NCBI GenBank assembly: GCA_017472225.1
Contig: JAFUQS010000077.1
Span: 1-35,800 of the forward strand
Direction: 5' to 3'
DNA length: 35,800 nucleotides
Source: Clostridia bacterium
Lineage (GTDB): Bacteria; Bacillota; Clostridia; Oscillospirales; Acutalibacteraceae
This document shows, in pieces, positions 3,931 to 21,062 of this stretch. The notes beneath the pieces were generated by a model. The model had not been told where the DNA came from, searched no databases, and saw only the letters and a list, made by a program, of their open reading frames with translations. How positions within the stretch are numbered: position 1 is the first letter of the stretch; each line of letters opens with the position of its first letter. The position numbers and the translations under genes were made by a program.

Positions 3931-5073
3931 ATGAAAGCGATTGTAAACGGAAAAATTATTCTTAAAGACAGAATAACCGAAAACTGTGCCCTTCTTTATT
4001 CTGATGTGATTGAAGGAATTGTGCCCGGCGATAACATTCCGGAAGGCGCTGAGATTATCGATGCAAAGGGCGGTTATGTTTCGCCCGGACTTATTGATAT
4101 GCACATTCACGGATATCTTGGTAAGGATGTCTGTGACGGTGAGGAGGAGAGTATCCGCACAATTTCAAAGGGACTTCTGTCCAACGGTGTCACAGGCTAT
4201 CTTCCCACCACTATGACTGTGGACATGAAGGTTATCAGAAAGGCTCTTGAGGTTTGCCGCAATCTTAAAGAAGAAAGCAAAACCTGGGTCGGCAGTACGA
4301 TTTTAGGCTGCCACGCTGAAGGCCCATTTATAAGTGAAAGCAAAAAGGGTGCACAGGATGCAAAATATATCCTTAAGCCTGATGCGGAGTTTGTCAAGGA
4401 ATATGCAGATATTATCAAAACCATCACTCTTGCACCTGAGACCGATGAAAATGATTTTTCTGCAATTCGTGAAATTTGCCGTGATACCGATGTTGTTGTG
4501 TCAATGGGTCATACCTCGGCAGATTATGAAACTGCAATGGCGGGTGTTAATGCAGGTGTGAAGCATGTTACTCATCTTTTCAACGCCATGACGCCTCTCA
4601 GCCACCGTGCTCCCGGTGTTGTTACAGCGGCACTTAATGCAGATGTTAGCTGTGAGCTTATTGTTGATACCTTCCATGTTGACCCGTGCTTTTATGATAT
4701 GCTCTGGAAGCTGAAGGGAAGAAAGCTCTGCTTTATTACAGACTGCTTACCGGCAGGCGGACTTCCCGAGGGTGAATATACTCTCGGCGGACAGAAGATT
4801 ATCTATAAAGGTATTGTCTGTCGCCTTGAAGACGGAACTGTTGCGGGCAGTATATTGCATCTTAATAAGGGTGTATGGAATGTGTATACAAATTCAACCA
4901 TTCCGCTTCATGAGTGTGTAAATTGTGCTTCACTCAATGCTGCAACCGTTTTAGGTCTTGAAAAAACAAAAGGCTCACTTGAGATAGGTAAAGATGCTGA
5001 TATAATCATTACCGACTGTGAGTTTAATGTAGAAAAAACAATTATCGGAGGAGAGATCAGATATGAATCTTAA
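3931..5073 (+). CDS. nagA: N-acetylglucosamine-6-phosphate deacetylase
   Basis: A 380-residue amidohydrolase-superfamily enzyme that hydrolyses GlcNAc-6-P to glucosamine-6-P and acetate in the cytoplasm. Visible landmarks are the metal-binding HxH motif (GLIDMHIHG, His58/His60), the GCHAEGPFIS motif carrying the metal-bridging Glu, SMGHTSADY, VTHLFNAMTPL, and the catalytic Asp in FITDCLPAGG. Length is normal for NagA. The ribosome binding site is weak (GGAAGTG). The last 11 bases overlap the following ROK gene, so translation is probably coupled. No nagB (deaminase) is present in this segment. It ends the accessory island and begins a region with more typical codon use. The call rests on several invariant motifs and is secure. 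Confidence 0.95.
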   Translation: MKAIVNGKIILKDRITENCALLYSDVIEGIVPGDNIPEGAEIIDAKGGYVSPGLIDMHIHGYLGKDVCDGEEESIRTISKGLLSNGVTGYLPTTMTVDMKVIRKALEVCRNLKEESKTWVGSTILGCHAEGPFISESKKGAQDAKYILKPDAEFVKEYADIIKTITLAPETDENDFSAIREICRDTDVVVSMGHTSADYETAMAGVNAGVKHVTHLFNAMTPLSHRAPGVVTAALNADVSCELIVDTFHVDPCFYDMLWKLKGRKLCFITDCLPAGGLPEGEYTLGGQKIIYKGIVCRLEDGTVAGSILHLNKGVWNVYTNSTIPLHECVNCASLNAATVLGLEKTKGSLEIGKDADIIITDCEFNVEKTIIGGEIRYES

Positions 5074-6439
5074 AGTAAAAGCAAAACTTGACCCGAAATT
5101 TCAGCCCTTGTCAATTGTTTGCCGTGAAATGCGTGAAGCTACCAAGGAAAACGGACAGGACATAATCATTGCCGCTGAAAGAAATGACGGATACACCTCT
5201 ACATATAAAACCCGTATCTTCTGTGACGGAACAGGCCACGATGAGGAAAATTTCCGTTTTGTTGAGCGTATCGCAAAATCAATTTTGTGGGTAGTCGGCG
5301 GATATAAGCTTATTATCGCCGGCAGCGAAACAGTCGGCAATAAAATCAAAGAAGCTTTTTCTGATGGCGGACTTCGTAATTTTGATTTTCATTATATGGA
5401 AAAGGTATACGAGCACCCCTTTGAGGTTGAAATTTGCGCTTTAGAAGATGCTCCGAAGGATAAATCATCAGCCGCTCCCGTAGGCAGACATCTTGACGGC
5501 TGCCGTATCGGCTTTGATGCAGGCGGAAGTGACCGTAAGGTAAGTGCTGTTATTGACGGCAAGAGCGTTTATTCCGAAGAAGTTGTCTGGTTCCCTAAGC
5601 TTAATTCAGACCCGGAATATCACTATCAGGGTATTCTTGAAGCTATGAAAACTGCCGCTTCAAAAATGCCGAGAGTTGACGCTATCGGTGTATCCTCAGC
5701 GGGTATTTATGTCAATAACCGCATAATGGCTGCATCACTTTTCATCAAGGTAAGTGATGAGGATTGCGACAAGCGAGTTAAGAATATGTACATTGATATT
5801 GCAAAGGAAATCGGTGAGGATATTCCTCTCGAGGTTGCAAATGACGGTGATGTAACTGCTCTTGCAGGTGCAATGGACCTTAATGACGATTCTGTTCTCG
5901 GTGTTGCTATGGGTACAAGTGAGGCAGGCGGATATATTGACCCTCAGGGCAACATTACAGGCTGGCTCAATGAGCTTGCTTTTGTACCCGTTGATTTCTG
6001 TGAAGAAGCAATGGTTGATGAGTGGTCAGGCGATTATGGCTGCGGTGTAAAGTATTTTTCACAGGATGGCGTTATCAAGCTTGCACCTTATGCCGGAATT
6101 GAGCTTGATGAAAGCCTTTCACCTGCTGAAAAGCTGAAGGTTGTTCAGAACCTTATGAAAGATGGTGATGAGCGAGCTGCTCTGATTTACGATACCATCG
6201 GTGCATATTTCGGCTATGCAATTGCCTATTATACCGAGTTCTATGACATCAAACACGTTATTATTATGGGACGTGTTACCTCGGGTGAAGGCGGAGTAAT
6301 TCTTCTCGAACGTGCTCAGGAGGTGCTTGATAAGGAATTCCCCGAGCTTGCAAAGAAAATTAAGCTTCACATTCCTGACGAAAGCTCACGCCGTGTCGGT
6401 CAGTCTGTTGCAGCAGCAAGTCTTCCCAAAATCAAATAA
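5063..6439 (+). CDS. ROK-family sugar kinase with N-terminal extension
   Basis: The 458-residue protein has a ROK/ASKHA kinase domain from about residue 148 (CRIGFDAGGSDRKVSAVIDG, phosphate-1 loop), with the catalytic Asp in EVANDGDVTALAGA and the phosphate-2 region GVAMGTSEAGGYID. The usual ROK zinc motif (CxCGxxGC) is not evident; the corresponding area reads SGDYGCGVKYF. About 145 residues precede the kinase domain and contain no motif I know (it begins LKVKAKLDPKFQPLSIVCRE); ordinary ROK kinases are about 300 residues. The ATG at 5063 follows GGAGGAG and overlaps nagA by 11 bases. Operon context suggests phosphorylation of GlcNAc, glucosamine or a related sugar, but substrate cannot be read from sequence. 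Confidence 0.85.
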   Translation: MNLKVKAKLDPKFQPLSIVCREMREATKENGQDIIIAAERNDGYTSTYKTRIFCDGTGHDEENFRFVERIAKSILWVVGGYKLIIAGSETVGNKIKEAFSDGGLRNFDFHYMEKVYEHPFEVEICALEDAPKDKSSAAPVGRHLDGCRIGFDAGGSDRKVSAVIDGKSVYSEEVVWFPKLNSDPEYHYQGILEAMKTAASKMPRVDAIGVSSAGIYVNNRIMAASLFIKVSDEDCDKRVKNMYIDIAKEIGEDIPLEVANDGDVTALAGAMDLNDDSVLGVAMGTSEAGGYIDPQGNITGWLNELAFVPVDFCEEAMVDEWSGDYGCGVKYFSQDGVIKLAPYAGIELDESLSPAEKLKVVQNLMKDGDERAALIYDTIGAYFGYAIAYYTEFYDIKHVIIMGRVTSGEGGVILLERAQEVLDKEFPELAKKIKLHIPDESSRRVGQSVAAASLPKIK

Positions 6440-6445
6440 AGTATG

Positions 6446-6478
6446 AGGGGCTGTAAAATTTTTACAGCTCCTTTTTTC
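6446..6478 (+). terminator. Terminator of the nagA-ROK operon
   Basis: GGGGCTGTAAAA pairs with TTTTACAGCTCC followed by TTTTTT (6447-6477). Confidence 0.8.
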
Positions 6479-6507: not shown

Positions 6508-6536
6508 TTGAAAAACGTCGTAATGTTTGTTATAAT
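6508..6536 (+). promoter_or_regulatory. Promoter of the CooC/HgdBC/ACS-like operon
   Basis: TTGAAA (6508-6513), 17-bp spacer, TATAAT (6531-6536); predicted start about 30 bases before the first ATG at 6573. Confidence 0.7.
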
Positions 6537-6572: not shown

Positions 6573-7340
6573 ATGGAAAACAGCAACGCAACAATAATTG
6601 CCCTTTCGGGTAAGGGCGGAGTGGGTAAAACCTCAATTTCTGCCGCAATTGTCAAGCTCCTTGTGGAAGCTTATCCCGATAAGAAAATTCTTGCAATTGA
6701 CGCTGACCCCGCTGTGGGACTTTCAACGGCTTTGGGCATTGATGTTGAAACTACTATTGACGACATCAGAAAAGAGATAGTTTCAACAGTTGAGGATGGC
6801 AACACCAAGGCGGCTATTGAGCTTTTGGGTGATGCGAGATATAAAATTTTTGATGCTCTTGTTGAAACTGACGGCTTTGCCTTTATCGCCGTCGGCAGAC
6901 CTGAAAGTGCGGGATGCTATTGTAAAATCAATTCATATCTTAAGGAAGTAATCAGTATACTTTCAAATGACTTCGATTATGTTGTTATTGATGGTGAAGC
7001 AGGCATCGAGCAGATCAACCGCAGAGTTATGGAAAAGGTGACCCATCTTCTTCTCATAACTGATGCAAGTAAAAAGGGTACACAGGTCATCACAACCATC
7101 AAGAGCGTTGCAGATGAGCTTGTGATGTATAAAAAAATCGGTGCAATTGTCAACAGACTTCCCGATGAAAGTGTAATTGAGCATATCAACACAAACGGAA
7201 TTCCTGTGTTGTCATATATTGAAAACGATAAAAATCTTGCCATTTATGACATTGAGGGCAAAAATATCATCGGCTTGCCCGATTCCTCCAATGTTGTCAA
7301 GGGTGTGAAAAAAGCTCTTGAAGAGCTTGAGATTTTGTAA
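6573..7340 (+). CDS. CooC/AcsF-type P-loop ATPase (metal-cluster maturation)
   Basis: A 255-residue MinD/ParA-superfamily NTPase with a deviant Walker A (GKGGVGKT, residues 13-20), a Walker A' region (AIDADPAVGLSTALG) and a CYC motif at Cys115/Cys117 in the sequence GRPESAGCYC. In CooC and AcsF this CxC binds Ni or Zn at the dimer interface, and the proteins insert nickel into CO dehydrogenase or acetyl-CoA synthase. The ATG at 6573 has GGAGAGG upstream; a TTG at 6555 in the same frame is less likely. It is the first gene of a six-gene operon with acyl-CoA-dehydratase-type proteins and an ACS-like domain protein, so its client is likely one of these. General family certain; the CooC/AcsF subgroup is supported by CxC. 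Confidence 0.85.
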   Translation: MENSNATIIALSGKGGVGKTSISAAIVKLLVEAYPDKKILAIDADPAVGLSTALGIDVETTIDDIRKEIVSTVEDGNTKAAIELLGDARYKIFDALVETDGFAFIAVGRPESAGCYCKINSYLKEVISILSNDFDYVVIDGEAGIEQINRRVMEKVTHLLLITDASKKGTQVITTIKSVADELVMYKKIGAIVNRLPDESVIEHINTNGIPVLSYIENDKNLAIYDIEGKNIIGLPDSSNVVKGVKKALEELEIL

Positions 7341-7350
7341 GGAGAAGGCT

Positions 7351-8556
7351 ATGAGAGATTTAAAACATCTTTATGAGTTCGAAAATCTGTTGCAGGAAGC
7401 AAACAATGAGCTTGTGCAGAAGGCTAAATCTGAAGGCGGAATTGCTCTTGGTTATACCTGCTATCACATTCCCGAGGTGCTGTTGAATTGCGGAAACTGT
7501 TTTTCTGTCAGACTCAGAGCACCCCGTACCGGTTCAATGGATATTGCGACCTATTACATGAGCAATTTCCTTTGCGGCTATTCAAAGGCTATTCTTGAAC
7601 GTGCTATTGAAGGGGGATATAATTTCCTCAATGCTTTGCTCGCTTCTGAAACCTGTTCCGAAATGAACAGAACGGCTGAACATTTCGAGCTTCTTGATCT
7701 GGTGCCCAACGAAAAATTTTTCATCACCTTTATGGATATGCCCTTCAAGGTGGAGGAGCATACTCTTAAGCACTATGTTAAGCAGGCAAGGCTCAAAATT
7801 CTTGATATGCTGACCTCAGTTTACGGGGTTGACACCTCTGATGAAGCACTTCTGAAGGCTGTTCGGGAGCATAACGAGGTTTGTCGCCTCATGACAGAAA
7901 TAGGGGACTACCGCAAGGAAGAAAATCCCCGTATAACAGGTTATGAATATCATATTCTTAACCTTGTTACATATTGCTGCCCGAAGTCACTTATTCTGCC
8001 CGCACTCAGAGAAACCGCCGAGGAGCTGAAAACAAGAGAACCTGATGTGAAGAAAAACTACAGGGCAAAAATTGTGGTTGTCGGCTCTGAAATGGATGAC
8101 CCGGATTTCACTTCGCTTATTGAAGACAGCGGAGCTTTGGTTGTTGCTGACAGATATTGCTTCGGTGCACTTCCCGGAAGACAGGAAATTGTAATAAATG
8201 AAAACGAAGATGTGCTCACTCAGATTTGTCTGCACTATCTTAAAACAAGTCAGTGCCCCCGTTTTATGAGTCACGAAAAAATTCAGGAGCGCAGAGATTA
8301 TGTGAAGCAGCTTGTTGATGAATATCATGCAGACGGTGTTATGTATGAGCAGCTGAAATTCTGCGAATATTGGGGCTATGAAAGAGCATTGGCTTCCTAT
8401 GTTATGAGTCAGGATTACGGAGTTCCGACTGCTGCTGTTGACCGTCAGTACACCGCTTCTGCCTCAGGACAGCTTCGCACAAGAGTGCAGGCATTTGTGG
8501 AAAGCCTTGAAATCAAGAAAATTCAGAAGGAAAGGCAGGAAAAGAAAAATGGCTGA
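7351..8556 (+). CDS. 2-hydroxyacyl-CoA dehydratase-type (HgdB/BcrC-like) iron-sulfur subunit, short form
   Basis: A 401-residue member of the HGD-D family, which binds a [4Fe-4S] or double-cubane [8Fe-9S] cluster and accepts electrons from an ATP-driven activator. Key features are GYTCYHIPEVLLNCG (Cys37 in the C-x3-P-E context), TCSEMNR (Cys102) and KFCEYWGYE (about Cys338), the three expected cluster ligands. Start at 7351 follows GGAGAAGG; the upstream ATPase ends 10 bases before. It overlaps the next subunit by 8 bases. Family members include 2-hydroxyglutaryl-CoA dehydratase, benzoyl-CoA reductase and double-cubane cluster proteins that reduce small molecules. No CoA-transferase or dehydrogenase gene is nearby, so the substrate is not predicted. 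Confidence 0.85.
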   Translation: MRDLKHLYEFENLLQEANNELVQKAKSEGGIALGYTCYHIPEVLLNCGNCFSVRLRAPRTGSMDIATYYMSNFLCGYSKAILERAIEGGYNFLNALLASETCSEMNRTAEHFELLDLVPNEKFFITFMDMPFKVEEHTLKHYVKQARLKILDMLTSVYGVDTSDEALLKAVREHNEVCRLMTEIGDYRKEENPRITGYEYHILNLVTYCCPKSLILPALRETAEELKTREPDVKKNYRAKIVVVGSEMDDPDFTSLIEDSGALVVADRYCFGALPGRQEIVINENEDVLTQICLHYLKTSQCPRFMSHEKIQERRDYVKQLVDEYHADGVMYEQLKFCEYWGYERALASYVMSQDYGVPTAAVDRQYTASASGQLRTRVQAFVESLEIKKIQKERQEKKNG

Positions 8557-10078
8557 CCTCGGAAAGCTCTATAAAGAGCATACGGCTATATTGAAGCACA
8601 GAGAATGGCGTGGCTTCAGGGACACAATGTATGACTACTACCGTTGGCTTGTTACCTGGAAGGATATGTTTGTTATGGTGCTCAAGGCACCGATTTCCAC
8701 AGTCAAGGGCTTGTGGAGATATCGTTGGATGGCATCATATCTTACAACTCCCGCTTTTGTTGACCGTCATGTTGCAGGACTTCGTGGACCTCATCTCAGA
8801 ATGGCTCATCTGCATTATAATATGATTGTCAAGCACGCAACAGGTCTTATAAACACATCCTTTGTTGCCGATGAAAAAATAAATCCGGGCAACAAGCTTT
8901 CAAAGAAAATCGTTCTTATGGATGAAATAGTTCCCAATGAGGTATTTTCCGGCTTTCCGAACCTTATTCCGATACCGTTGCAGACCATGCCGATTTTCCT
9001 TTCCTCAATGGTTGACCAGCAGATTACACCGCCTTATCTTGAACAGACGGAAAGCTTCGGTGTTCCCGCCGATGTCTGTCCCTTGCCAAGCTCCGAAGCA
9101 GGTGTTGCAATTGAAGATGATTATCCGAAAATGGGCTGCTGCATGATTTCATCGAATATGCCTTGTGACGGTTCAATTATGAATTCATCTTTTCTTGACA
9201 GGCGTATCAATCTTCCCACCCATTGCTTCAATGTACCGCTTCGCTATAACGGTGAGGATGTTCAGGAATATGCCGTTGATGAAATCAAATCACTCATTGA
9301 GTTCATTGAAAAGCAGACGGGTGAAAAATTTGATTGGGATGCTTTCTTCAGTGCCATGAAGAACTATAATAAGCAGCTTGAATATGAACTTCAGAAGTGG
9401 GATATCAACAAAACACCTTATCCGCAGATGACAGGTGCAGCCTTCTGGCTTTACAGAATTTATTATTTTAACCTTTCAGGCGGTGTTGATAAGCGTTTCC
9501 TTAAGGTTGACGAAAAAGTCAACAAGATAATGATGAAGGCATATGAAAAGAAAACTCCCGTGTCAAAGGAAATGAGACACAGAGCTGTGGTCTGGAGCTG
9601 CCCTGCAAACTATTACACATCCTTTTCAAATTGGCTTGAAAACTGTTGGGGTATGAATGTTGTTATGGATATGGAAACCATGATTTCATATCTTGAATTT
9701 GATACCGAAGATAAGGAACAGGCACTCAAGGATCTTGCAAAAACCTATCAGCGTTCAATCATGCGTAAGCATACAAAGGGTGGCTATCGCAATGTTGTTG
9801 ATGAATTGTGGCGCATTGTGGAAGAGTATAATGCTGATACGGTTATTATGTATGATCAGATTTCATGCAAGGGTATGGACGGACTTGTCGGTATTTTTGA
9901 TGATCAGGCAAGAGAGCGTAACATCAATTTCATCTGGGTTAAGCAGGACCTTATGGACCCCCGCACAATTTCAAGAAGAGATATGCGAGAACAGGTGAAC
10001 AAGTATATGCAGACAGTTTTGCAGGAGGAGCCTCTTGATGCTTCACTTGTAGATTTTGAAGACGATTTAGCTTGGTAA
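8549..10078 (+). CDS. 2-hydroxyacyl-CoA dehydratase-type (HgdB-like) subunit, long form
   Basis: A 509-residue second HGD-D-type protein. Cluster-ligand candidates are DVCPLPSSEAG (Cys177), NMPCDGSIM (Cys206, following a GCC pair at 197/198) and ISCKGMDG (Cys440). About 120 residues precede the first conserved block, longer than usual; they are rich in aromatic and basic residues (for example DYYRWLVTWKDMFVMVLKAP). The ATG at 8549 lies inside the end of the previous gene (8-base overlap), with AGGCAGGAAAAG as ribosome binding site; the frame extends further back but no better start exists. Together with the 401-residue protein it probably forms a heterodimer comparable to HgdA/HgdB or BcrB/BcrC. 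Function of the pair unknown. Confidence 0.85.
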   Translation: MADLGKLYKEHTAILKHREWRGFRDTMYDYYRWLVTWKDMFVMVLKAPISTVKGLWRYRWMASYLTTPAFVDRHVAGLRGPHLRMAHLHYNMIVKHATGLINTSFVADEKINPGNKLSKKIVLMDEIVPNEVFSGFPNLIPIPLQTMPIFLSSMVDQQITPPYLEQTESFGVPADVCPLPSSEAGVAIEDDYPKMGCCMISSNMPCDGSIMNSSFLDRRINLPTHCFNVPLRYNGEDVQEYAVDEIKSLIEFIEKQTGEKFDWDAFFSAMKNYNKQLEYELQKWDINKTPYPQMTGAAFWLYRIYYFNLSGGVDKRFLKVDEKVNKIMMKAYEKKTPVSKEMRHRAVVWSCPANYYTSFSNWLENCWGMNVVMDMETMISYLEFDTEDKEQALKDLAKTYQRSIMRKHTKGGYRNVVDELWRIVEEYNADTVIMYDQISCKGMDGLVGIFDDQARERNINFIWVKQDLMDPRTISRRDMREQVNKYMQTVLQEEPLDASLVDFEDDLAW

Positions 10079-10091
10079 AGGAGAAAAAGAT

Positions 10092-10892
10092 ATGAAATAT
10101 TTTGGCGGATGTGATGTTGGCTCAACATACACAAAATGCGTTATTCTTGATGAAAACGGCAAAATGGTTGCCAATGTGACAAACAGAAGTAAAATCAATC
10201 CCGTTGCAAGTGCGGAAATTGCCTTGGGTGATGCGATTTCACAGGTTGACGGTCTGAATTCGGCTGAACAGCTCAGTTACCTTATCGGTACGGGCTACGG
10301 CAGAAACAAGGTGCCCTTTGCTGATGAGAATATTTCCGAAATCAGTTGTCATGCCATGGGTGTTCATGTAACAAATCCCGAGGTAAAGGCGATTATCGAC
10401 ATCGGCGGACAGGATGTCAAGGGTATTTCAATTGACACCGACGGAACAGTTAAAAACTTTGCAATGAACGATAAATGCGCTGCAGGTACAGGCCGCTTTT
10501 ACGAAGCAATGGCCAATGCTTTTGAAATGACATTGCCCGAATTTTCAAAGCTTTCGCTTAATGCAAAAAATACAATTCCCATCACTGCGCAGTGTACCGT
10601 TTTCGCAGAAAGCGAGGTTATTTCTCTTGTGGGTGAGGGTAAGCCTATGGATGAAATTGCCGCCGGTATTCAGCTTGCAGTTGCAAAGCGATGCTTTGTT
10701 ATGGCAAAAAAAGCCGGAGCTGTGGACAGTATCACACTCACAGGCGGTTGCGCCAAAAATGACGGACTCAAAAAGGCAATTGAAAAGGTACTCAAAATCA
10801 AGGTTGTTGAGCTTGGCACCGACCCTCAGCTTATGGGCGCATTGGGTGCTGCTGAATATGCAAGACAAAAAGGACTTGCAAAGGAGAACTGA
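10092..10892 (+). CDS. Acyl-CoA dehydratase activator-type ATPase (HgdC/BadF/BcrA family)
   Basis: The 266-residue protein is an ASKHA-fold ATPase that holds one [4Fe-4S] cluster at its homodimer interface and uses ATP to drive low-potential electrons onto HgdB-type partners. The nucleotide-binding loops DVGSTYTK (8-15) and DIGGQDVK (103-110), the cluster ligands Cys129 (KCAAGTGRFYE) and Cys168 (AQCTVFAESEV), and LTGGCAKNDGL near the C-terminus are all present. Length is normal for HgdC. Its ATG follows AAAGGAGAAAAAG, 13 bases after the upstream stop. It is the dedicated reductase for the two preceding subunits. Confidence 0.93.
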   Translation: MKYFGGCDVGSTYTKCVILDENGKMVANVTNRSKINPVASAEIALGDAISQVDGLNSAEQLSYLIGTGYGRNKVPFADENISEISCHAMGVHVTNPEVKAIIDIGGQDVKGISIDTDGTVKNFAMNDKCAAGTGRFYEAMANAFEMTLPEFSKLSLNAKNTIPITAQCTVFAESEVISLVGEGKPMDEIAAGIQLAVAKRCFVMAKKAGAVDSITLTGGCAKNDGLKKAIEKVLKIKVVELGTDPQLMGALGAAEYARQKGLAKEN

Positions 10893-10893
10893 T

Positions 10894-11049
10894 ATGGAAA
10901 TAATTTTAATAATTCTGGCAGTTATTCTCTGCCTGTTCGTTATCACCTTCGCAATTTATTGGTTCAATCTTGATATGAAGCTCATTCGTGTGGTATATGA
11001 TTTTCTGCAGAAGCATTACGATAACATGAAAAGGGATAAGAAGCTCTGA
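10894..11049 (+). CDS. Small single-pass membrane protein (51 aa)
   Basis: The ATG at 10894 follows AAAGGAGAACTGAT and sits 1 base after the activator stop; the stop codon overlaps the next start (TGATG). The protein begins with a hydrophobic helix of about 24 residues (MEIILIILAVILCLFVITFA and on to IYWF), then an amphipathic basic tail (about DMKLIRVVYDFLQKHYDNMK) ending RDKKL. No known family. The spacing makes it a real operon member. It could tether the iron-sulfur system to the membrane or couple it to an electron donor, which is speculation. Confidence 0.75.
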   Translation: MEIILIILAVILCLFVITFAIYWFNLDMKLIRVVYDFLQKHYDNMKRDKKL

Positions 11050-11747
11050 TGGATTTTTTCAATTCGTTAATAGATGAAACATTATCTGCAACAGCCGGAC
11101 TTGAGAAAACTTCATTTGCTTATGACGAAGGTGATGCATGGAAGGATGTCGGCTACAATCAGGTGGTTCTGCAGCGTGACAGTGCATACGAGCTTGACGG
11201 TATCGGCTTCAATCTTATCACATCAGCTTCGGTGAAGGATGAAATTATTGTTGTCGGTGATGAGCTTAAAAATATCGGCAGCAACCGTAAATTCGCAAGA
11301 ATTTCCATTGTGCAGATTGATGACATTGCTGAAGATCAGAAAGCATATGATCTGATAAGAAAAATTGAGTATGTTAAATACCATTATTTTCCCGACGGCT
11401 ACATGATAAGAACATCATCACGCTCACACAAAGAGGTTGTGAGAGTTTCAAAAGCTGCCATTAACAGTGGCATTGAATTCAGGAATGTAGGAAATCTTCT
11501 TATCAGCAGATATAAGCAAATTAAGCAAGTCAGGGGAGTAAAGGTGATTTTCATCAGTGACCCTACGGCAGATTTCAAAAGGCTTGAGACTCTTGCTCAA
11601 AGGAATAATCAGATAACAGAAACCCTTAATCATGTTATGAACAGTGTTAATTTTGATTGCAGCACCTGTAATCTGAAGCCTGTGTGTGATGAGGTTGAGG
11701 GAATGAGAGAGCTTCACTTCAAAAGTGCTGCAAATGGAATGGGCTGA
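11049..11747 (+). CDS. Acetyl-CoA synthase (AcsB/CdhC) central-domain-like protein with C-x2-C-x5-C
   Basis: A 232-residue protein. The segment GYMIRTSSRSHKEVVRVSK, then FRNVGNLLISRYKQ and VRGVKVIFISDP resembles, by memory, the stretch of acetyl-CoA synthase beta subunits (CdhC/AcsB) where EGFMHLNQRD..WCRVSK, then HIGKIL and VQVTIITDP occur. The A-cluster catalytic domain that follows in true ACS is missing; instead the protein ends with FDCSTCNLKPVCDEVEG (C-x2-C-x5-C), which could be a reduced cluster site or a zinc site. It is the last gene of the operon and its start overlaps the small membrane protein stop. Presence of a CooC/AcsF-type ATPase at the front of the same operon supports an ACS-like relationship. 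Function unknown. Confidence 0.65.
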   Translation: MDFFNSLIDETLSATAGLEKTSFAYDEGDAWKDVGYNQVVLQRDSAYELDGIGFNLITSASVKDEIIVVGDELKNIGSNRKFARISIVQIDDIAEDQKAYDLIRKIEYVKYHYFPDGYMIRTSSRSHKEVVRVSKAAINSGIEFRNVGNLLISRYKQIKQVRGVKVIFISDPTADFKRLETLAQRNNQITETLNHVMNSVNFDCSTCNLKPVCDEVEGMRELHFKSAANGMG

Positions 11748-11775: not shown

Positions 11776-11834
11776 TAAAAAGACAGATTTACCCGGCGGC
11801 AAAGCGTGTCGCTGAGAAAAATCTGTCTTTTTTT
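11776..11834 (+). terminator. Terminator of the CooC/HgdBC/ACS-like operon
   Basis: AAAAAGACAGATTT (11777-11790) pairs with AAATCTGTCTTTTT (11818-11831), with a 27-base loop that itself can fold. The T-run continues to about 11834. Confidence 0.8.
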
Positions 11835-12170: not shown

Positions 12171-15100
12171 ATGAAAACCACAAAAAAAGTGCTGAGTGTT
12201 CTGCTCGCTGTGATTATTATGATGTCCAGCATGAGCGTTTGCTTTGGCACAGTTTCATTTGCGGCTACTGATGCAACAAACGATTTCATTGCAGCAGTTC
12301 AGTGCGATGCTATGAAGAATTTTGTAGCACCGACGCCGACAACAAGCGGCAATAAGGAAAGCAGCTCCAATGAGTATAAGCTGACTTACACTTATAAGGC
12401 TGCAAGTTACGCTCATTACACTCAGATGGTCAAGGTTTTAAGCACCTTTGACGCAGCATACAAGAGTATTCTCACCAACAAGCAGTTAACACACAACAAC
12501 GGTGCTAACTGCGCCAACAAGCAGGATTGGTGTACAGATGAAGCTGATGTTAAAGCTGCTTTAATAGCCAATATCGGCAGTAGCTATAATACGCTTGTAT
12601 CAAATTATAACCTTGATGATTTTCTTGGTTGCGTTCTTAGTAAAGACGGCGTTGCTTACAGAAACGAACAAAACGATAGCCATAACTCATGGGATACTTG
12701 CAAAACACCTACAAGAGTAAAAAATATTTTTGTTGTAACAACAGATCTTCTTTCATATCTTAAGCACTTCTCAGATGTTGATTATATTGATCTTGATTCT
12801 GTCGATCTTACCAATACATATACATTCACTATGTGCAGACAGAATTATACAACCGGATTGTTTGGAGCTACTCAACACCATCACTCTGCTTTGAACACAA
12901 CTACAGAAGGCAGCTCAATTGCTGCAAGCAATGCTGCAACAACCAACAGAGCAGTTCTCACAGCAATGGAGGATGTTCTTGAAAAATATGCTGATTACCT
13001 TGACGAAACAACAATGAAGGGTATTCACGCTATTGAAACAGACCCGGATAAGCTCAATGCTGTTGCAAAGGAGCTTGAAGATGCACGTGCCGCTGTTACA
13101 ACTGCTTACGGCACCAATGCAGAAACAATATATAATCATTTCTTCAGCAGCAGTATTACTTACAGTGCTGTTCCTACACTCGTAACTCTTATAAAGGAAT
13201 CAGCTGTTGTTGCAGGCTACAAAGAAACCTGCGAAACAATTGAAGCCGATTACGAAAAGTATGCAAACGAAGAATATAAGACATATAATTCAACACAGGT
13301 CAACGCTCTTTACAATGAGCTTAAAACAGCTTACGATTTCTATAACAGCGCTGACGATGCATACAAAAGTACAATAGCAAGCTATTACGGCATTGACGAT
13401 ATTATCGGTGATGTTCCCGATGCTATTGATGCACTTCTTGCTTATTACTATGAAATCTTCCTCGGCTCAATCAAGGAAAGAGCATTCGGTGATAACAATA
13501 ACGGTTACATCAGTGAATATTCCTCATGGACCGTTGAAGATATCGACAATGATGTTATCACATCAGCAGATATTCTTACAGCAATCAATGAAGTAACTCT
13601 TGATATTGACACTCTTGATAAAGATGCAACAGAAAATGATATTCAGAGCTATTTCGGCATGAGCAAGACAGCGCTTATTGAAAAGCTTACTGAAGTTAAA
13701 ACTCACCTTGAAGAGCTCGGCTATTATGCAGGTCTCAACGATGAGCTTTATGAACAGTACGCAACATTCACAAATAACATTTCAAGTGTTATTGATGCAG
13801 ATTCATCGAAGCTTTTCAGCGTTCTCAGCGGCTATGAGCAGTGGTACACAGACCTCAAGGCCTTCTTTGTAACCTGGGAAACTGAGGTTGGTCAGTATAA
13901 GGACCTTCTTATGGACGACCTCAAGGCTACAATGTTTGACTATATGGAAGCTGCTTATGTAGCACTCCAGGCAAGAGTTGAAACTCAGATAAATGACGCT
14001 TACGGTCTTTATGAAGTATATGTTGACCTTTACGGCCACAACGTAACAATGCAGTCATTGACCTATTTCAACACACTTAAAAAGGCAATCACCGCAATTG
14101 AAGATGATGCCTACAATTGGATGAAGGACAATTCTCAGTACGGCGAAATCAGTCAGGATGCAATCACAAAGTATGATGCACTTCAGACTCTTTTCTCATA
14201 CTATGAGACCTTTGTTGCCAACAGAGGCTTCGACACATATCAGCAGACAACAATTGACACCGTCAGAGAAGACACAATTGATGACATTGCCCGTGAAAAC
14301 GCTGATATTGACAGCGACGATATCGGTGAATATGAAGTAACCGATGAAAACATTGAAAATGTTATCGATATTCTTGAAGCTGCTCTTGCAGACGAAGAAA
14401 TCAAGGCACTTCTTGGTACACTTGTAAACAAGGATGAAGACGGCAACCCGACAGGCGAACCCTTTGACCTTGCAGCTCTTATAAGCGGTCTTATTGAAGG
14501 TATTTACACTGACGATGCCATTAACGGAATCGTTCAGATGCTTTATCCCATCGTTGCAAAGGCATTCCTTGATGTTTGGGAAGGAATCAACCCGAAGATT
14601 ACAATCTATGATATGGAAACCGGTGTTGCTATTGCCCCCTCAGCTGATGTTGACGTTTACCTTGAGCTTTACGATGTTGACAGAGCAATTGCAAATGCAG
14701 GTATCGCTCTTTCACCGGCAATGCTTGCAGAAAAAATGGCTTCAAACAGCGAATATGCAACCAAGTTCCCCGAGGTAATCAACACACTTGCATCTATATC
14801 CGCAAAAACACGTTATGATGCCGAGGGCAATTATGTTGACCCGTGGAAGAACGAAGCTCTCTTTGTTGACGCTGTTGACGAAGACGGCAACAAAATAATT
14901 GACGAAGAAACCGGCGAGACAAAGCAGGTTTATGCTCTTGATTGGGGTATTGACGAAGCTGAAGATAAGAGAGCGGCATTTATTGATGCAGCCTGTGCAG
15001 CTCTTTCAGGTCTTGAACCTCTCCTTCATGCACTTATCCTCAACCAGAGATATGCAAACGGTGAAGAAACCGATACTAAGCCAAGAGGTGATAAGATCGG

Positions 15101-18100
15101 TACCGGCTTCGGTGATGCAGCAGCATCAGGTTTAGGTGCACTTCTTGGCGACCTTACGGTAACTGTTGATCCCATCACTCTCGTTCTTGAAATCAGCGCA
15201 AATGACGGTTATGACAATGTTCTTGCTCCGATTTTTGAAGCACTCGGTCTTACTAATATTCCTCACAGTGAGGATATGAAGACAACAAAAGACTTCTTTG
15301 AAAAGGGCTTCTTCGGAATGATTGATCAGCTTATCAATAAGATTTCCGCAAATCCCCTTGAAACAATACTCAGCATTGTTCCCAACCTTGTTTATGCCCT
15401 TGAAGCCGACCTTGTTGCTCCTCTTCTTGACCTTCTTGCAATTGACATCAACTACTATGCTGATGCTTATTACGATGCAGAGGTTACAAGCGGTATTCTT
15501 GACAAGGCTATGAAGTCTGAAGAACCTATTGCTATCAATGTTGGTCAGATGCTCAACCTTGAAGATATGGGCGTTAACCTTTCCGGCGGTCTCGCAGGTA
15601 TTCTTGAAATGCTCGGAATTGAAATTCCCATGCCCGACGTTTCAGTCCTTGCAACAGCAGGTAAGCTTACATGGGTTGACACCAACAGAAGCGCATGGAC
15701 TTACACATATCAGCCCGCAGGCACAACAGGTAAGGCAGCTCACATTGAAGCCAACAAGGCTGATGTGCTCGAATACCTTGTTAAATATGTTCTCGGAAAC
15801 CTTGACGGAATCCTTTCAGCATTCAATGTTGACACAAGCACACTTGCCGAAGCTGTTGCACAGATTCTTGACAATGTTAAGAACAATCCCGACGGTGTTG
15901 TTGCTGCAGCAGTTGAGCTTTTCAATCAGCAGTATTATGATACTCTCGAAAACTATGAGTGGTATGACGGCACAAACTATGTAACCGGTACTGTTGAAGG
16001 CTTCACACCCGCAACTCAGATTTATCTCAATCCCGAAAACGATTGGACAAAGGAAAAGGCTACATACCTTTATAATAACCTTGAAGCAATTGTAAATTCA
16101 ATCATCACAACTGCAGGCTCAGAGCTCAACATTGAAGCTGAGCTTCAGAAGGCAATCGGCGGTCTTTATACAAATGCAAATGTAACTGCTCTTGCTAAGC
16201 TTCTCGGCAACCTTGACCTTAACGCACTTGTTGCAGGTGAAGAAACAGAAGGCGAAGAAGCTTCTGCAGATATTGACCTCAACGCTCTTGTCAAAGACCT
16301 TGTAGGTATTGACTTTGGCACATTCGCAAAGTACAAGGATATCGCAGATGATTACAGCTGGGGCTTCACAGACGGTGACAGCGAAGGCTTCGTTACTGCA
16401 CTTGTTGATATTCTTGCTCCCTTCAAGCCTGTCCTTGACTTCATTCTTACAGGCGAAAACCTTGAAATTACATTTGACACAGATAAGGTTACACTCTTAG
16501 GCTACGACGGCTACAACAACGCATTCGTACCTCTTCTTGAGGCTCTCGGCTGCGATGTTAAGGCTCTCAGCGCTGACGACAATGCACTTGAGGTTATCCT
16601 CAACGCTCTTGTTGCAAAGATTGACACCCTTACAACAAACGACCCTGCAAATGATAAGGACGGTACACTTTATGCAATTATTGAACTGCTTCCCGGTGTT
16701 CTTTACTTCCTTTCAAGCAACGGTCTTTCAACAGCAGTAAGAAATCTTCTTCAGCCTGTATATGTAATTCTTGACACAATCAGACCTATCTACGATGTAG
16801 ATATCAACGAACTGCTTGCCGGAATCGAGGTTAACGGTGAGAGTCTCGGTCTTGATCTTGACCTTCTTAACACAAACTTTGTTATTGACCTCGTATCAAA
16901 GCTCACAAAGCTTAACCTTACAGGTCTTAAGACTGTTATCTACGATGTATGTAAGGTAATCGGCACTGAATATGAATCAATCAGCACACTTGAAAATCAG
17001 GATGTATGGAAGAAGGGTGCTTACAGCGCAAGCTTCGACCAGGCAGATATTCTCACAGTAATTCTTTCTTATGTGCTTGAATGGATTACAGTTGATGAAA
17101 ATGCTCAGGCTCTTGATGAAATGCTCGGCACAGACGGTATCATCGATGCGCTTGATACAGTTTTCGCTGACATCGAAATCACCTATAATTCACCCGATTG
17201 GATGTATTGGTTCAGCACTCAGGAAGAATTCGACGCTTATGTAAACGGCGGCACAGAAATTCCCTCAACCCTTGCAGCTCTCACATATCCCAACGATTGG
17301 TCAGACGAAACTGCACAGTATCTTGCTGACAATATTGTTGAACTTGTTGATACAGTTGTAGGTCTTGTAAGCGAAGACTATGATACACTTGCTGCTCTCA
17401 TTGAAGCTAATGTAAATGTCTTCACAACAGAAAATCTTGATAAGCTTGTTGAGCTTATTACTGACCTTCTCGGTCAGATTGATGCAAATCTCATCGAAGC
17501 TGCCGGCAGACTTCTTGATGTTGATCTCAACGGTCTTACAACCTATAAGGCTCCCGAAGGCATCGACACTGCATCAGAATTTGCTTCAGAGCTTTCAAAT
17601 GTACTCACAACATATGCAAAGGGTCTTGTTGAATGGCTCTTCCTTGGCAATGACTACAGATTTGCTAAGAAGTCAGACAGCACAGACACAATCGTTATCA
17701 ACGGCGGTGAAGGCTACGCTGAAGGCCTTGCACTTATCCTTGAAGCTCTTGACTGCAAGAATCTTCCCGCAGCAGACGGTGAAACAACAGAAATCGTAAA
17801 TGCAGTTCTTGCTTCACTCGCAAGCCGTGTTGAAGAAATCCTTGCTAACCCTGTAGAAGAAGTTCTTGACCTTCTTCCCAATCTTGTATACTTCCTTAAC
17901 GCAAACGGTGCAGGTGTTGCAGTTGACAATCTTCTCCAGCCCGTATATGCACTTCTCACAAAGCTTGAGACATTCGGTGTTGAGCTTGACCTCAACGAGC
18001 TTCTTGGCTTTGAGCTTAAGGATCTTTCACTTAACGCTGTTCTCACAATCGTAGAAGAAAAGGTTGGTCTTGACCTTTCAATGGTTAAGGAAATTCTTGT

Positions 18101-21062
18101 TGATTTCTGCATCGGCACAATCGTTTCCTATGATTCAGTAAGCGTTAACCCTGCATATAAGATGACAGGCTTCTCAAGAAAGGATGTTATCACGGTTGTT
18201 CTCACAACAGCACTTCTTGTTGTTGAAAATGAACAGAATGCAGCAAAGCTTGATGAACTCATCGGCACAGAAATCGTTTCAGCACTTAAGAGCGTATTTG
18301 AAAGCGCTCCCGTAAGCTATGTAACACCTGATTGGGATTACTGTTGGGCTGAAGACGGTATTGATTACGACAACGCAACTGTTGAAGTTATGGAATATGC
18401 TATTACATATCCCAACAACTGGACAGAAGAAAGCGCAAAATATGTTGCCGATAACCTCGGACCTATCGGTGATATGATTGCAGGTCTTATTGACAGTAAC
18501 TACGACTCACTTGGTGCTCTCGTAAACGATAAGGTTAAGATTTATACAGGTGAAAACATCAACGCTATTGTTGATGCCATCACAAACCTTCTTTCCGATA
18601 TTGATGCAAAGCTTCTTGAAGCTGCAGGTATTCTTCTTGATGTTGACCTTAACGGTCTTGCAGCATATGAAGCTCCCGCAGGCGAAATGACTTCAGAAGC
18701 ATTTGCAGCTGAGCTCACAAAGGTTCTTACAACATACGCAAACGGTCTTGTTGAATGGCTCTTCCTCGGCAATGACTTCACATTCTTTGTTGACGATGCA
18801 AACGCTGACGGCATTTACGGTGAAGGCGAAGATATCATCACAATCAACGGCGGCCACGGCTATGCTGAAGGTCTTGCACTTGTTCTTGAAGCTCTCGGTT
18901 GCGAAAATCTTCCCGATGCTTATGACACAACAATGTCAACAGAAGAAATTGTAGGTGCAGTTCTTACCTCTGCAGTAAATCGTGTTGACGAAATTCTTGC
19001 AGATCCCGTAACAGAAGTATTTGACCTTCTTCCCAACCTTCTTTACTTCCTCAATGCTAACGGTGTGGCAGCAGCAATTGATAATCTTCTTGGTGCTGTA
19101 AACGCTCTTCTTGTTAAGCTTGAAGCTTTCGGCGTTGAAGTTGATATCAACTCACTTATCAATATTGAAGAGCTTCTCGGCATTGAAAAAGATCTTTCAA
19201 TCAGCCTCGACAATCTCACAATTGCAGCAATTCTCGAGCTTGTTTCTGAGCTTACAGGTCTCAAGCTTACAGCTCTTGAAGATGTACTTGTCGGCTTTGC
19301 CCTTGGTGAAGTTAAGGCTTACGGCTCAGTAAGCAGAACAGATATTACATATAAAATGTATTATCATGATGACTTTGCAAAGTATGATATGATTACAGTT
19401 CTTGCAACATGTGTAATCATGGCAGTTGAAGATGAAGCAAATGCAGAAAAGCTCAAGGAGCTCTTAGGTGAAGATATCTACACAGTAATTCTTAACCTGT
19501 TCAATATGGGCGAGGTTCCTGTTCAGGAATTTGATTGGAAGTTCACCGATAAGGCTGACACAGGTTATGCATTCTCAGCTATCGAAACCTCAGACCTTTA
19601 TAAGAATCACAAGTACGGTCCTCTTTACACAGAAGAGATGGCACAGTACATTGCAGACAATATCGGCGAATTCGTTGACAATGTTATCTATCTTCTCGGC
19701 ATCAACATCAACGGCACAAGCGTTGACAGCCTTAAGGAGCTTATCAACGAAGTCGTTAATGGCTCACTTTATAACAGTGCAAATGTAATCGCAATTCGTG
19801 ATGCACTTGCCGGTGTTCTCGAAAACCTCGGAAACATGGAAGGCGGCGAACACATCAAGGCAGTCCTCAAGTCCTCACTCGGTGTTGACATTGATGCAGT
19901 TGCTAAGGTAAATGTTCCTGAATTCGAAGAAGACAGAGCTAAGTTCACCAAGTATCTTTGTGAGGTTCTTGAACCCTTGTATCCCGTTCTTGAGTGGGTA
20001 CTTGCAGATGAGGATATCGCATTCTTTGTTGACGAAAACAAGGATGACGCCATTAAGCTCTTCGGTGCAGAAGGCTACGCTTACGGTATCATTCCTCTTC
20101 TTGAGGTTCTCGAATGTGAAAACATTCTCACTCCCGATGAATACTATTCAGCAGTTGAAGCAGACGGCAATGTAGTTATCACAGCAATTCTCAATCCGCT
20201 TCTTGACAGAGTAGATGTAATTATGGAAGATCCCGCTGAGGCAATCCTCTCCATGCTTCCCAATCTTATCTACTTCATCAACTCAAACGGTGTTGATACA
20301 GTTGTTAAGAATACACTCAATGCAGTTTACGCACTTCTCAATGCAATTGAGCCCATTGCAAAGATTGATCTTTATGAGCTTATCGGTATTGACCTTGAAA
20401 CTCTTACCTTTGAAAAGCTCTTCCAGATGGCTCTCGATATGATTGCTGATGCAACAGGCTATGAATTCAGTACTCTTGATGCAAGTGCAGTTGCAGAGCT
20501 TACCGTTGGTACTCTCGTATCTTACGATTCAAAGAACGGTAAGACAGCATACAAGATGATTTACCAGTCAGAATCCTCAAAGGCTGAAATGGTAACCGTT
20601 ATAATGCGCTTGATTGTAACCTTCATCATGCATGAAAACAATCGTGAAGCACTCATCGGTCTTCTTAAGGATTACCTTGGAATGACAGAGGACGCTGAAA
20701 AGTATGTAAGAGGCGTGCTTGACATGATTGCATCATGTGCAACCGAAACCTATCTCGGTATGGATAAGGCTCTTGCAACACTTTACTATATCTTCTACGG
20801 TACAGATATTGCAGTTGGTGAAACTGCAGACGGTCTTAAGGATGTAAACGCTAAGTGGCAGCAGATTCTTAAGGATATGGGTAAATCAGATGACCCGAAC
20901 GAAAAGACTCTCGGTAATGCTCTTGCTGACTTCCTTGACACATACTTTGAAGATATTGTTACTTCCGAAGGTATTGCACCTAACGGCTTAATCGCATTCT
21001 TCCAGAAGATTATTGCATTCTTCCAGAAGATCATTGATTGGTTTAAGAATCTTTTCAACTAA
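12171..21062 (+). CDS. Giant exported repeat protein (2963 aa), function unknown
   Basis: Begins with a clear signal peptide (MKTTKKVLSVLLAVIIMMSS, cleavage near SFAA at about residue 31). Residues ~35-930 are a helical, low-hydrophobicity region with no family I recognise, containing YEKYANEEYKTYNSTQVNAL-like helices. From ~930 to ~2890 about five degenerate units of 375-470 residues follow, each with a GYxxxxxPLLEAL-type block, a LPNLVYFLNANG-type block, and a W(S/T)xExAxYxADN block. The composition is strongly acidic (Asp/Glu) with few basic residues, and few cysteines. The C-terminus ends in an amphipathic tail (LIAFFQKIIDWFKNLFN). No LPxTG, SLH or dockerin motif was seen. The ATG has GGAGG 7 bases upstream and it is a monocistronic unit. 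Adhesin, surface-layer-like or scaffold roles are possible; none is demonstrated. Confidence 0.9.
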   Translation: MKTTKKVLSVLLAVIIMMSSMSVCFGTVSFAATDATNDFIAAVQCDAMKNFVAPTPTTSGNKESSSNEYKLTYTYKAASYAHYTQMVKVLSTFDAAYKSILTNKQLTHNNGANCANKQDWCTDEADVKAALIANIGSSYNTLVSNYNLDDFLGCVLSKDGVAYRNEQNDSHNSWDTCKTPTRVKNIFVVTTDLLSYLKHFSDVDYIDLDSVDLTNTYTFTMCRQNYTTGLFGATQHHHSALNTTTEGSSIAASNAATTNRAVLTAMEDVLEKYADYLDETTMKGIHAIETDPDKLNAVAKELEDARAAVTTAYGTNAETIYNHFFSSSITYSAVPTLVTLIKESAVVAGYKETCETIEADYEKYANEEYKTYNSTQVNALYNELKTAYDFYNSADDAYKSTIASYYGIDDIIGDVPDAIDALLAYYYEIFLGSIKERAFGDNNNGYISEYSSWTVEDIDNDVITSADILTAINEVTLDIDTLDKDATENDIQSYFGMSKTALIEKLTEVKTHLEELGYYAGLNDELYEQYATFTNNISSVIDADSSKLFSVLSGYEQWYTDLKAFFVTWETEVGQYKDLLMDDLKATMFDYMEAAYVALQARVETQINDAYGLYEVYVDLYGHNVTMQSLTYFNTLKKAITAIEDDAYNWMKDNSQYGEISQDAITKYDALQTLFSYYETFVANRGFDTYQQTTIDTVREDTIDDIARENADIDSDDIGEYEVTDENIENVIDILEAALADEEIKALLGTLVNKDEDGNPTGEPFDLAALISGLIEGIYTDDAINGIVQMLYPIVAKAFLDVWEGINPKITIYDMETGVAIAPSADVDVYLELYDVDRAIANAGIALSPAMLAEKMASNSEYATKFPEVINTLASISAKTRYDAEGNYVDPWKNEALFVDAVDEDGNKIIDEETGETKQVYALDWGIDEAEDKRAAFIDAACAALSGLEPLLHALILNQRYANGEETDTKPRGDKIGTGFGDAAASGLGALLGDLTVTVDPITLVLEISANDGYDNVLAPIFEALGLTNIPHSEDMKTTKDFFEKGFFGMIDQLINKISANPLETILSIVPNLVYALEADLVAPLLDLLAIDINYYADAYYDAEVTSGILDKAMKSEEPIAINVGQMLNLEDMGVNLSGGLAGILEMLGIEIPMPDVSVLATAGKLTWVDTNRSAWTYTYQPAGTTGKAAHIEANKADVLEYLVKYVLGNLDGILSAFNVDTSTLAEAVAQILDNVKNNPDGVVAAAVELFNQQYYDTLENYEWYDGTNYVTGTVEGFTPATQIYLNPENDWTKEKATYLYNNLEAIVNSIITTAGSELNIEAELQKAIGGLYTNANVTALAKLLGNLDLNALVAGEETEGEEASADIDLNALVKDLVGIDFGTFAKYKDIADDYSWGFTDGDSEGFVTALVDILAPFKPVLDFILTGENLEITFDTDKVTLLGYDGYNNAFVPLLEALGCDVKALSADDNALEVILNALVAKIDTLTTNDPANDKDGTLYAIIELLPGVLYFLSSNGLSTAVRNLLQPVYVILDTIRPIYDVDINELLAGIEVNGESLGLDLDLLNTNFVIDLVSKLTKLNLTGLKTVIYDVCKVIGTEYESISTLENQDVWKKGAYSASFDQADILTVILSYVLEWITVDENAQALDEMLGTDGIIDALDTVFADIEITYNSPDWMYWFSTQEEFDAYVNGGTEIPSTLAALTYPNDWSDETAQYLADNIVELVDTVVGLVSEDYDTLAALIEANVNVFTTENLDKLVELITDLLGQIDANLIEAAGRLLDVDLNGLTTYKAPEGIDTASEFASELSNVLTTYAKGLVEWLFLGNDYRFAKKSDSTDTIVINGGEGYAEGLALILEALDCKNLPAADGETTEIVNAVLASLASRVEEILANPVEEVLDLLPNLVYFLNANGAGVAVDNLLQPVYALLTKLETFGVELDLNELLGFELKDLSLNAVLTIVEEKVGLDLSMVKEILVDFCIGTIVSYDSVSVNPAYKMTGFSRKDVITVVLTTALLVVENEQNAAKLDELIGTEIVSALKSVFESAPVSYVTPDWDYCWAEDGIDYDNATVEVMEYAITYPNNWTEESAKYVADNLGPIGDMIAGLIDSNYDSLGALVNDKVKIYTGENINAIVDAITNLLSDIDAKLLEAAGILLDVDLNGLAAYEAPAGEMTSEAFAAELTKVLTTYANGLVEWLFLGNDFTFFVDDANADGIYGEGEDIITINGGHGYAEGLALVLEALGCENLPDAYDTTMSTEEIVGAVLTSAVNRVDEILADPVTEVFDLLPNLLYFLNANGVAAAIDNLLGAVNALLVKLEAFGVEVDINSLINIEELLGIEKDLSISLDNLTIAAILELVSELTGLKLTALEDVLVGFALGEVKAYGSVSRTDITYKMYYHDDFAKYDMITVLATCVIMAVEDEANAEKLKELLGEDIYTVILNLFNMGEVPVQEFDWKFTDKADTGYAFSAIETSDLYKNHKYGPLYTEEMAQYIADNIGEFVDNVIYLLGININGTSVDSLKELINEVVNGSLYNSANVIAIRDALAGVLENLGNMEGGEHIKAVLKSSLGVDIDAVAKVNVPEFEEDRAKFTKYLCEVLEPLYPVLEWVLADEDIAFFVDENKDDAIKLFGAEGYAYGIIPLLEVLECENILTPDEYYSAVEADGNVVITAILNPLLDRVDVIMEDPAEAILSMLPNLIYFINSNGVDTVVKNTLNAVYALLNAIEPIAKIDLYELIGIDLETLTFEKLFQMALDMIADATGYEFSTLDASAVAELTVGTLVSYDSKNGKTAYKMIYQSESSKAEMVTVIMRLIVTFIMHENNREALIGLLKDYLGMTEDAEKYVRGVLDMIASCATETYLGMDKALATLYYIFYGTDIAVGETADGLKDVNAKWQQILKDMGKSDDPNEKTLGNALADFLDTYFEDIVTSEGIAPNGLIAFFQKIIAFFQKIIDWFKNLFN
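14968..20850 (+). repeat. Five tandem ~1.1-1.4 kb coding repeats within the giant gene
   Basis: Approximate unit starts are 14968, 16381, 17575, 18698 and 19939. Anchors in each unit are the GY(D/N/A) block (about 15205, 16503, 17706, 18854 and 20067) and the LPNLVYFLN-type block. Units 3 and 4 are the most alike, also at DNA level (both encode GLVEWLFLGND and EGLAL(I/V)LEAL), indicating the latest duplication. Unit 1 is the most diverged. Boundaries are estimates from visual alignment. Confidence 0.75.

Follow-up and report, generated by a model that had tools for sequence, protein, structure and literature searches.

In the present study we have analysed a six-gene operon, A-B-C-D-E-F, on the forward strand of contig JAFUQS010000077.1 of a Clostridia bacterium of the family Acutalibacteraceae (assembly GCA_017472225.1). 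The window, i.e. the whole stretch of DNA under analysis, is this entire 35.8-kb contig, and the genome to which it belongs amounts to 2.3 Mb at 91% completeness. This arrangement of six genes is conserved among anaerobic bacteria, those of the gut included, and A and F have relatives among the nickel enzymes that make acetate. We propose, with a probability of roughly 0.55, that it encodes an ATP-driven very-low-potential reductase of the benzoyl-coenzyme A (CoA) reductase/double-cubane superfamily together with its own helper proteins. This proposal is built on the homologies and cluster ligands of the proteins, on their gene order, and on extra B-C(-E) loci in genomes with a single copy of F and of a close A.

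The reductase core is formed by B, C and D. Genes B (7351..8556) and C (8549..10078) both match the Pfam family HGD-D (E 6e-91 and 3e-49), which confirms the two HgdB-type iron-sulphur subunits of the original prediction, made from the letters of the sequence. Gene D (10092..10892), foreseen as an HgdC-type activator, matches BcrAD_BadFG (E 4e-56), exceeds the domain cut-off of TIGR00241 (213.4 vs 125.4 bits) and is an HgdC/BcrAD-type activase. Six cysteines of B (37, 75, 102, 270, 302 and 338) and three of C (177, 206 and 440) are invariant in 35 of 35 aligned sequences. The accessible part of PMC11971306 gives 36/73/100/263/293/327 as the double-cubane ligands of BzdN and 95/128/380 as the catalytic-cubane ligands of BzdO; the six cysteines of B stand at nearly the BzdN spacing and the three of C correspond to the BzdO ligands. 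B is predicted to hold an [8Fe-9S] double cubane and C a site-differentiated [4Fe-4S] cluster, so that the signatures of an ATP-driven low-potential reductase, which had been suspected earlier, are all present: double cubane, active-site cubane and activase. None of the histidines of C is invariant among the 35 sequences, and CDGS is found where benzoyl-CoA reductase (BCR) has CxxH (His131 of BzdO). The N-terminal extension of C (about residues 1-150) is family-specific, carries the motif REWRG...D...YRW and lies outside the Pfam match.

The equivalog cut-offs of NCBIfam were all missed, namely those of BzdN (93.9 of 453.8 bits), BcrB (26.3 of 486.6), BcrA (183.6 of 578) and HadC, the 2-hydroxyacyl-CoA dehydratase beta subunit (83 of 700). 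The nearest NCBIfam match of B is the double-cubane cluster protein (DCCP) model NF040772, at 143 bits (142.8 against a cut-off of 350). No orthology of the HgdB-like pair to a characterised dehydratase emerged, and from their sequences B and C appear to be built as the ATP-driven reductase of this superfamily, outside all members modelled in NCBIfam. The class I BCR BzdNO/BzdPQ (PDB 8s02), as presented in the accessible text of PMC11971306, is alike in its six-Cys and three-Cys subunits and its HgdC-type ATPase; the window differs in having one activase instead of two, no catalytic histidine, the extension of C and the additional A, E and F. DCCP and its reductase (PDB 6eno and 7yyl) are likewise an ATP-driven small-molecule reductase and supply the nearest model of B; however, DCCP is described there as a homodimer, whereas the window encodes a different second subunit and further proteins.

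The arrangement of the operon is strongly conserved. A scan with one genome per species for relatives of F gave 22 loci, of which 20 keep the order A-B-C-D-E-F on the same strand, more than expected by chance, while L015 and L018 end inside the operon. Many of these loci belong, by their record titles, to metagenome-assembled genomes from animal guts, and a complete operon is present in Clostridium gasigenes DSM 12272 (L009). A cluster with a different order, type II (B-C-D1-D2-F-A), occurs in another class (L057, L103 and L107; partial in L104-L106). The distribution is patchy: F was present in 3 of 100 genomes sampled from the family of the window; for the N-terminal part of C the figures were 7 of 391 sampled from the class and 1 of 398 from the phylum of the window, whose own genome is included in each count. 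Outside the operon there is no constant seventh gene: as far as the partly annotated flanks show, any family cluster is confined to at most 6 of the 22 loci, and the same figure and limit hold for a CoA-transferase/dehydrogenase neighbourhood. In the absence of a recurrent flanking family the substrate cannot be read from the context.

Over the 22-locus set F is the most variable of the five larger proteins, with 33-61% identity to the window vs 81-96% for D. Trees of 19 loci place C and D of L017, L020 and L026 within the clade of the window (support 0.994 and 0.996); B and F of these loci fall outside, the window grouping with L005-L007 alone (support 0.954 and 0.992). The B alignments were made without the B of L008/L063, L015, L018 (cut), L082 (where the contig ends inside C) and L104-L106, and the C alignments without L025, L015, L018, L082 and L104-L106. 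As judged by these trees, the operon is reshuffled, with a mosaic in L017, L020 and L026, and F is not bound to one lineage of C.

The copy numbers provide the argument for helper proteins. Extra B-C loci were found in G500 (four loci), G723 (three) and G812 (two), and the six extra sets have the composition B-C-E (L060, L062, L076 and L078), D-B-C-E (L061) or B-C (L077). None of the six has its own A or F in the flanks read, which span about 2-10 kb (L060 being a 6.2-kb contig). Searches of ten genomes, on which the counts outside the loci rest, gave one copy of F in each of the ten and likewise one copy of A above 50% identity; further copies of A at 30-36% identity occur in G795 and G685, which also have full ACS (acetyl-CoA synthase). 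Of the 35 F loci, 32 have A next to F, and in the remaining three the contig breaks off within the operon. All seven genomes found through the N-terminal extension of C also have F, and in L103 an F-A pair is located between two B-C-D sets. Since extra B-C(-E) loci coexist with single-copy F and A, we read A and F as a shared accessory pair. The simplest reading comprises a B-C(-E) enzyme, its activator D, and an A-F pair that looks common to several B-C-E enzymes.

Gene A (6573..7340) encodes a CooC-like P-loop ATPase. It matches CooC (PDB 3kje) with E 7e-16, and its deviant Walker A (KGGVGKT) and CYC motif (C115 and C117), on which a CooC/AcsF-like protein had been predicted, are present in 22 of 22 loci and then in 10 of 10 further ones. 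The equivalent Cys site of CooC binds metal, according to the accessible text of PMC6006190. A shares with CooC the P-loop and the CxC metal site, but differs in its company: PF03063, the family of carbon monoxide dehydrogenase (CODH) and HCP, was not found in 16 of 21 carrier genomes, that of the window included (the matches in the other five being to either CODH or HCP), and A accompanies F instead. Because PF03063 was not found in these 16 genomes, A probably serves something other than CODH there. A role of A as a nickel-binding or nickel-delivering ATPase is possible from its sequence.

Gene F (11049..11747) barely exceeds the cut-off of the Pfam family CdhC (24.2 vs 24.0 bits); a profile comparison relates F to ACS (hhalign 97.5%, E 7e-12), and the predicted structure resembles the ACS middle domain in fold too, as found by Foldseek and VIA-align, the latter among Foldseek's best 1000 chains. 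Placement of F outside the ACS family by profile searches was not observed. Compared with AcsB/CdhC, F is without the N-terminal domain and without the C-terminal dinickel (distal-nickel) domain, ending 4-16 residues past its Cys motif in 30 sequences. That motif, C-x2-C-x5-C, is found in 35 of 35 F proteins, the fourth place being taken by His in 31 of them and by Arg or Gln in four; the cubane motif of the A-cluster, C-x2-C-x8-C-x9-C, is found in 28 of 28 ACS and not in F. The RVSK...G segment of ACS is kept, with R132 in 30 of 30 sequences. Alignment counts cover 30 of the 35 F proteins, those of L103-L107 having been checked for the motif separately. Thus the ACS-like character expected of F stood, narrowed to the ACS middle domain and a Cys loop only.

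The 51-residue membrane protein of the original prediction is gene E (10894..11049), in which a single transmembrane helix at the N terminus (19 residues, mean hydropathy 3.5) is followed by a conserved YxxNxDxK segment (22 sequences). A profile of E, which also recovers the complete type-I loci given to the search (the complete locus of L076 among them), finds E beside five of the six extra B-C sets (L060, L061, L062, L076 and L078), and no E in the six type-II loci (L057, L103-L107); L057 has neither the C extension nor E. B-C is probably tethered to the membrane by E, probably with the N-terminal extension of C, and with such a hold the enzyme may act on a hydrophobic compound or on one bound to the membrane. 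For a substrate of this latter kind there is a precedent in the plasmalogen synthase PlsA/PlsR, a reductase of the BCR/HAD family acting on membrane lipids (PMC12838417, accessible part), which differs, as compared by its description, in its fused activase and reductase domains and in having no counterpart of A, E or F. E also brought a PlsA-type lipid reductase into consideration, which was set aside; in 17 of 21 carriers the HGD-D matches number exactly two, B and C. Additional HGD-D matches were seen in G501 (four) and G510 (five); those at G510:C27:6484-8360 are fragmented along a single contig and may be the remains of an additional B-C pair. In G259 the extra pair (L064) shares only ~25% identity with B.

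From these data we propose the following mechanism. By analogy with characterised relatives, electrons would pass from D to B to C: D would hydrolyse ATP and move electrons from ferredoxin or flavodoxin to B, whose double cubane would store them and relay them to the three-Cys [4Fe-4S] cluster of C, at which the substrate would be reduced or dehydrated. E, probably with the extension of C, would keep B-C at the membrane. On the grounds of sharing and ancestry, A and F would not be the catalyst; instead they would serve all B-C-E enzymes of the cell, or alternatively F itself, by loading or repairing a metal or iron-sulphur component, possibly nickel.

Hints of nickel come from neighbouring genes. 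In G500/RUG089, at the F locus, the end of F is overlapped by a small His-rich open reading frame (ORF), after which come CooT (PF10133, E 7e-15), a nickel-binding CODH accessory, and then an old-yellow-enzyme-type flavoprotein; the His-rich ORF and CooT lie directly 3' of F (L003:2232-2667 and L063:14042-14477). A His-rich ORF and CooT-like pair (L076:4007-4480; E 9e-4 and 2e-6) is separated by ~3.7 kb from the extra B-C-E set and by 7 kb from A. Downstream of F, HypA occurs at a distance of 3 kb in L079 and of 5 kb in L009, in both beside flavoproteins with the domain make-up of IsrA (L079:13233-16518; L009:2386-5097 and 12958-16096), which are 47-50% identical between the loci and flank the operon as two copies in C. 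gasigenes. IsrA is a putative isoprene reductase for which nickel has been proposed (PMC10134865, accessible part). The nickel-containing metal centre suggested earlier is retained as a possibility, hinted at by CYC in A, CooT in one locus and HypA within ~5 kb in two. Other neighbours are of flavin ene-reductase type (L063, L076 and L081), aldehyde:ferredoxin oxidoreductases (L080, L081 and L104) and, upstream in L103 and L107, acyl-CoA dehydrogenases; they suggest a metabolism that reduces acids, enoates or acyl-CoA. The window, as had been stated, has no acyl-CoA dehydrogenase or the like; nevertheless, since these two divergent loci carry them, their absence does not exclude acyl-CoA substrates.

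Several points weigh against a reductase with its own helpers. Neither DCCP nor BzdNO is known to need such proteins, so that a maturation role of A and F is without precedent, and it is just as conceivable that F carries electrons or is a subunit binding CoA. In the model of F the Cys loop is poorly defined (block-mean predicted local distance difference test 44-77, residues 191-232), and the local hhalign alignment stops before the Cys motif, the cysteines coming into register with ACS only under lax or global settings and with low confidence, for which reason we do not claim a cubane site common to both. Among the extra sets, that of L076 has a complete operon as its back-to-back neighbour, and the missing A and F are therefore little informative there; L060, at only 6.2 kb, offers little readable flank; and L077 has the C extension without an E by profile search. 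Regarding nickel, CooT-like genes are found at two distinct loci only, one of them 7 kb from A; the client of HypA in L079 and L009 may instead be the IsrA-like enzyme; a search for HypA gave no match in the genome of the window (91% complete); and its presence over the cut-off in 15 of 26 carriers gives no clear answer on nickel usage.

The alternative that survives best, which we hold as tentative, makes F a working subunit that would bind a CoA-thioester substrate or carry electrons via a [4Fe-4S] cluster to several B-C enzymes, and A would mature F only. Contact with CoA is reported for the middle domain of ACS (accessible part of PMC12289521). The retention of RVSK...G and R132 in F agrees with such a role, as do the acyl-CoA dehydrogenases of L103 and L107 and the activity on CoA esters of the family of B, C and D. 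However, F remains single-copy while B-C pairs multiply, it is the least conserved of the larger proteins, and in the three mosaic loci its history is unlike that of C and D. Furthermore, in the profile alignment the Trp of ACS, presumably Trp418, is aligned to a Met of F.

The reductase with helper proteins might also be taken further, to a new class of nickel-dependent reductases in which nickel would sit on the active-site cubane of C, and F would be an ACS-derived scaffold where A builds a Ni-[4Fe-4S] unit that is then handed on, one scaffold serving several membrane-tethered reductases; we consider this extension doubtful.

An ordinary dehydratase of amino-acid fermentation, or a class I BCR, joined by two unrelated genes is unlikely. 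The superfamily, cluster ligands and activase type are alike, and the type-II loci L057, L103, L105, L106 and L107 have two activase genes, as class I reductases do. On the other side, the equivalog cut-offs are missed by far, the catalytic histidine of BCR is not kept, the second activase is absent from the window, and the A-F synteny is too constant for added genes.

Very improbable is a C1-type enzyme, as had been envisaged, in the form of a CODH/ACS substitute that would use ATP-driven electrons to make or split acetyl units where CODH/ACS is lacking: although an ACS-related F and a CooC-like A do occur in genomes mostly without CODH or ACS (PF03063 not found, as above, full-length ACS not found in 25 of 31 carriers), and acetogenesis without canonical CODH/ACS is reported in a Lachnospiraceae bacterium (PMC7000372, accessible part), F has neither the dinickel domain nor the fourth cubane Cys, the other 6 of the 31 carriers hold full-length ACS beside F, which speaks against simple replacement, and the neighbours named above are not C1 genes, as far as the partly annotated flanks extend.

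Concerning the layout of the locus, the six co-oriented ORFs lie where they had been placed, with spacings from an 8-base overlap (B/C) up to 13 bases (C/D), and both the single promoter and the single terminator have their counterparts. The promoter-like site (6508..6536, plus strand; TTGAAA-17-TATAAT with TG before the -10) agrees with the consensus in 11 of 12 bases, a consensus match only, such sites numbering 23 across the region vs 12.9 in shuffles. A terminator-like hairpin with a T run follows F on the plus strand (about 11777..11834; -32.4 kcal/mol, z -8.7); its outer loop is too long for the consensus-type signal scan, the list of which does not include it. That scan places another terminator-like hairpin upstream of the operon (6445..6473), at which the genes of 3931-6439 end; these are of the amidohydrolase and ROK families and by appearance belong to amino-sugar metabolism. 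After the operon, 12171-21062 encodes a secreted-looking protein of 2963 residues, with internal repeats by eye and without a Pfam match.

The combination of genes A-F was not found described in the open-licence literature searched, nor was a role of the ACS middle domain outside acetyl-CoA synthesis, in both cases within its accessible text. The enzymes closest to B-C operate beyond the usual biological potential window (PMC11971306, accessible part). A membrane-tethered, multi-copy branch with a CODH/ACS-related helper pair would widen the reach of such enzymes and, if true, the ACS middle domain would gain a role outside acetyl-CoA synthesis.

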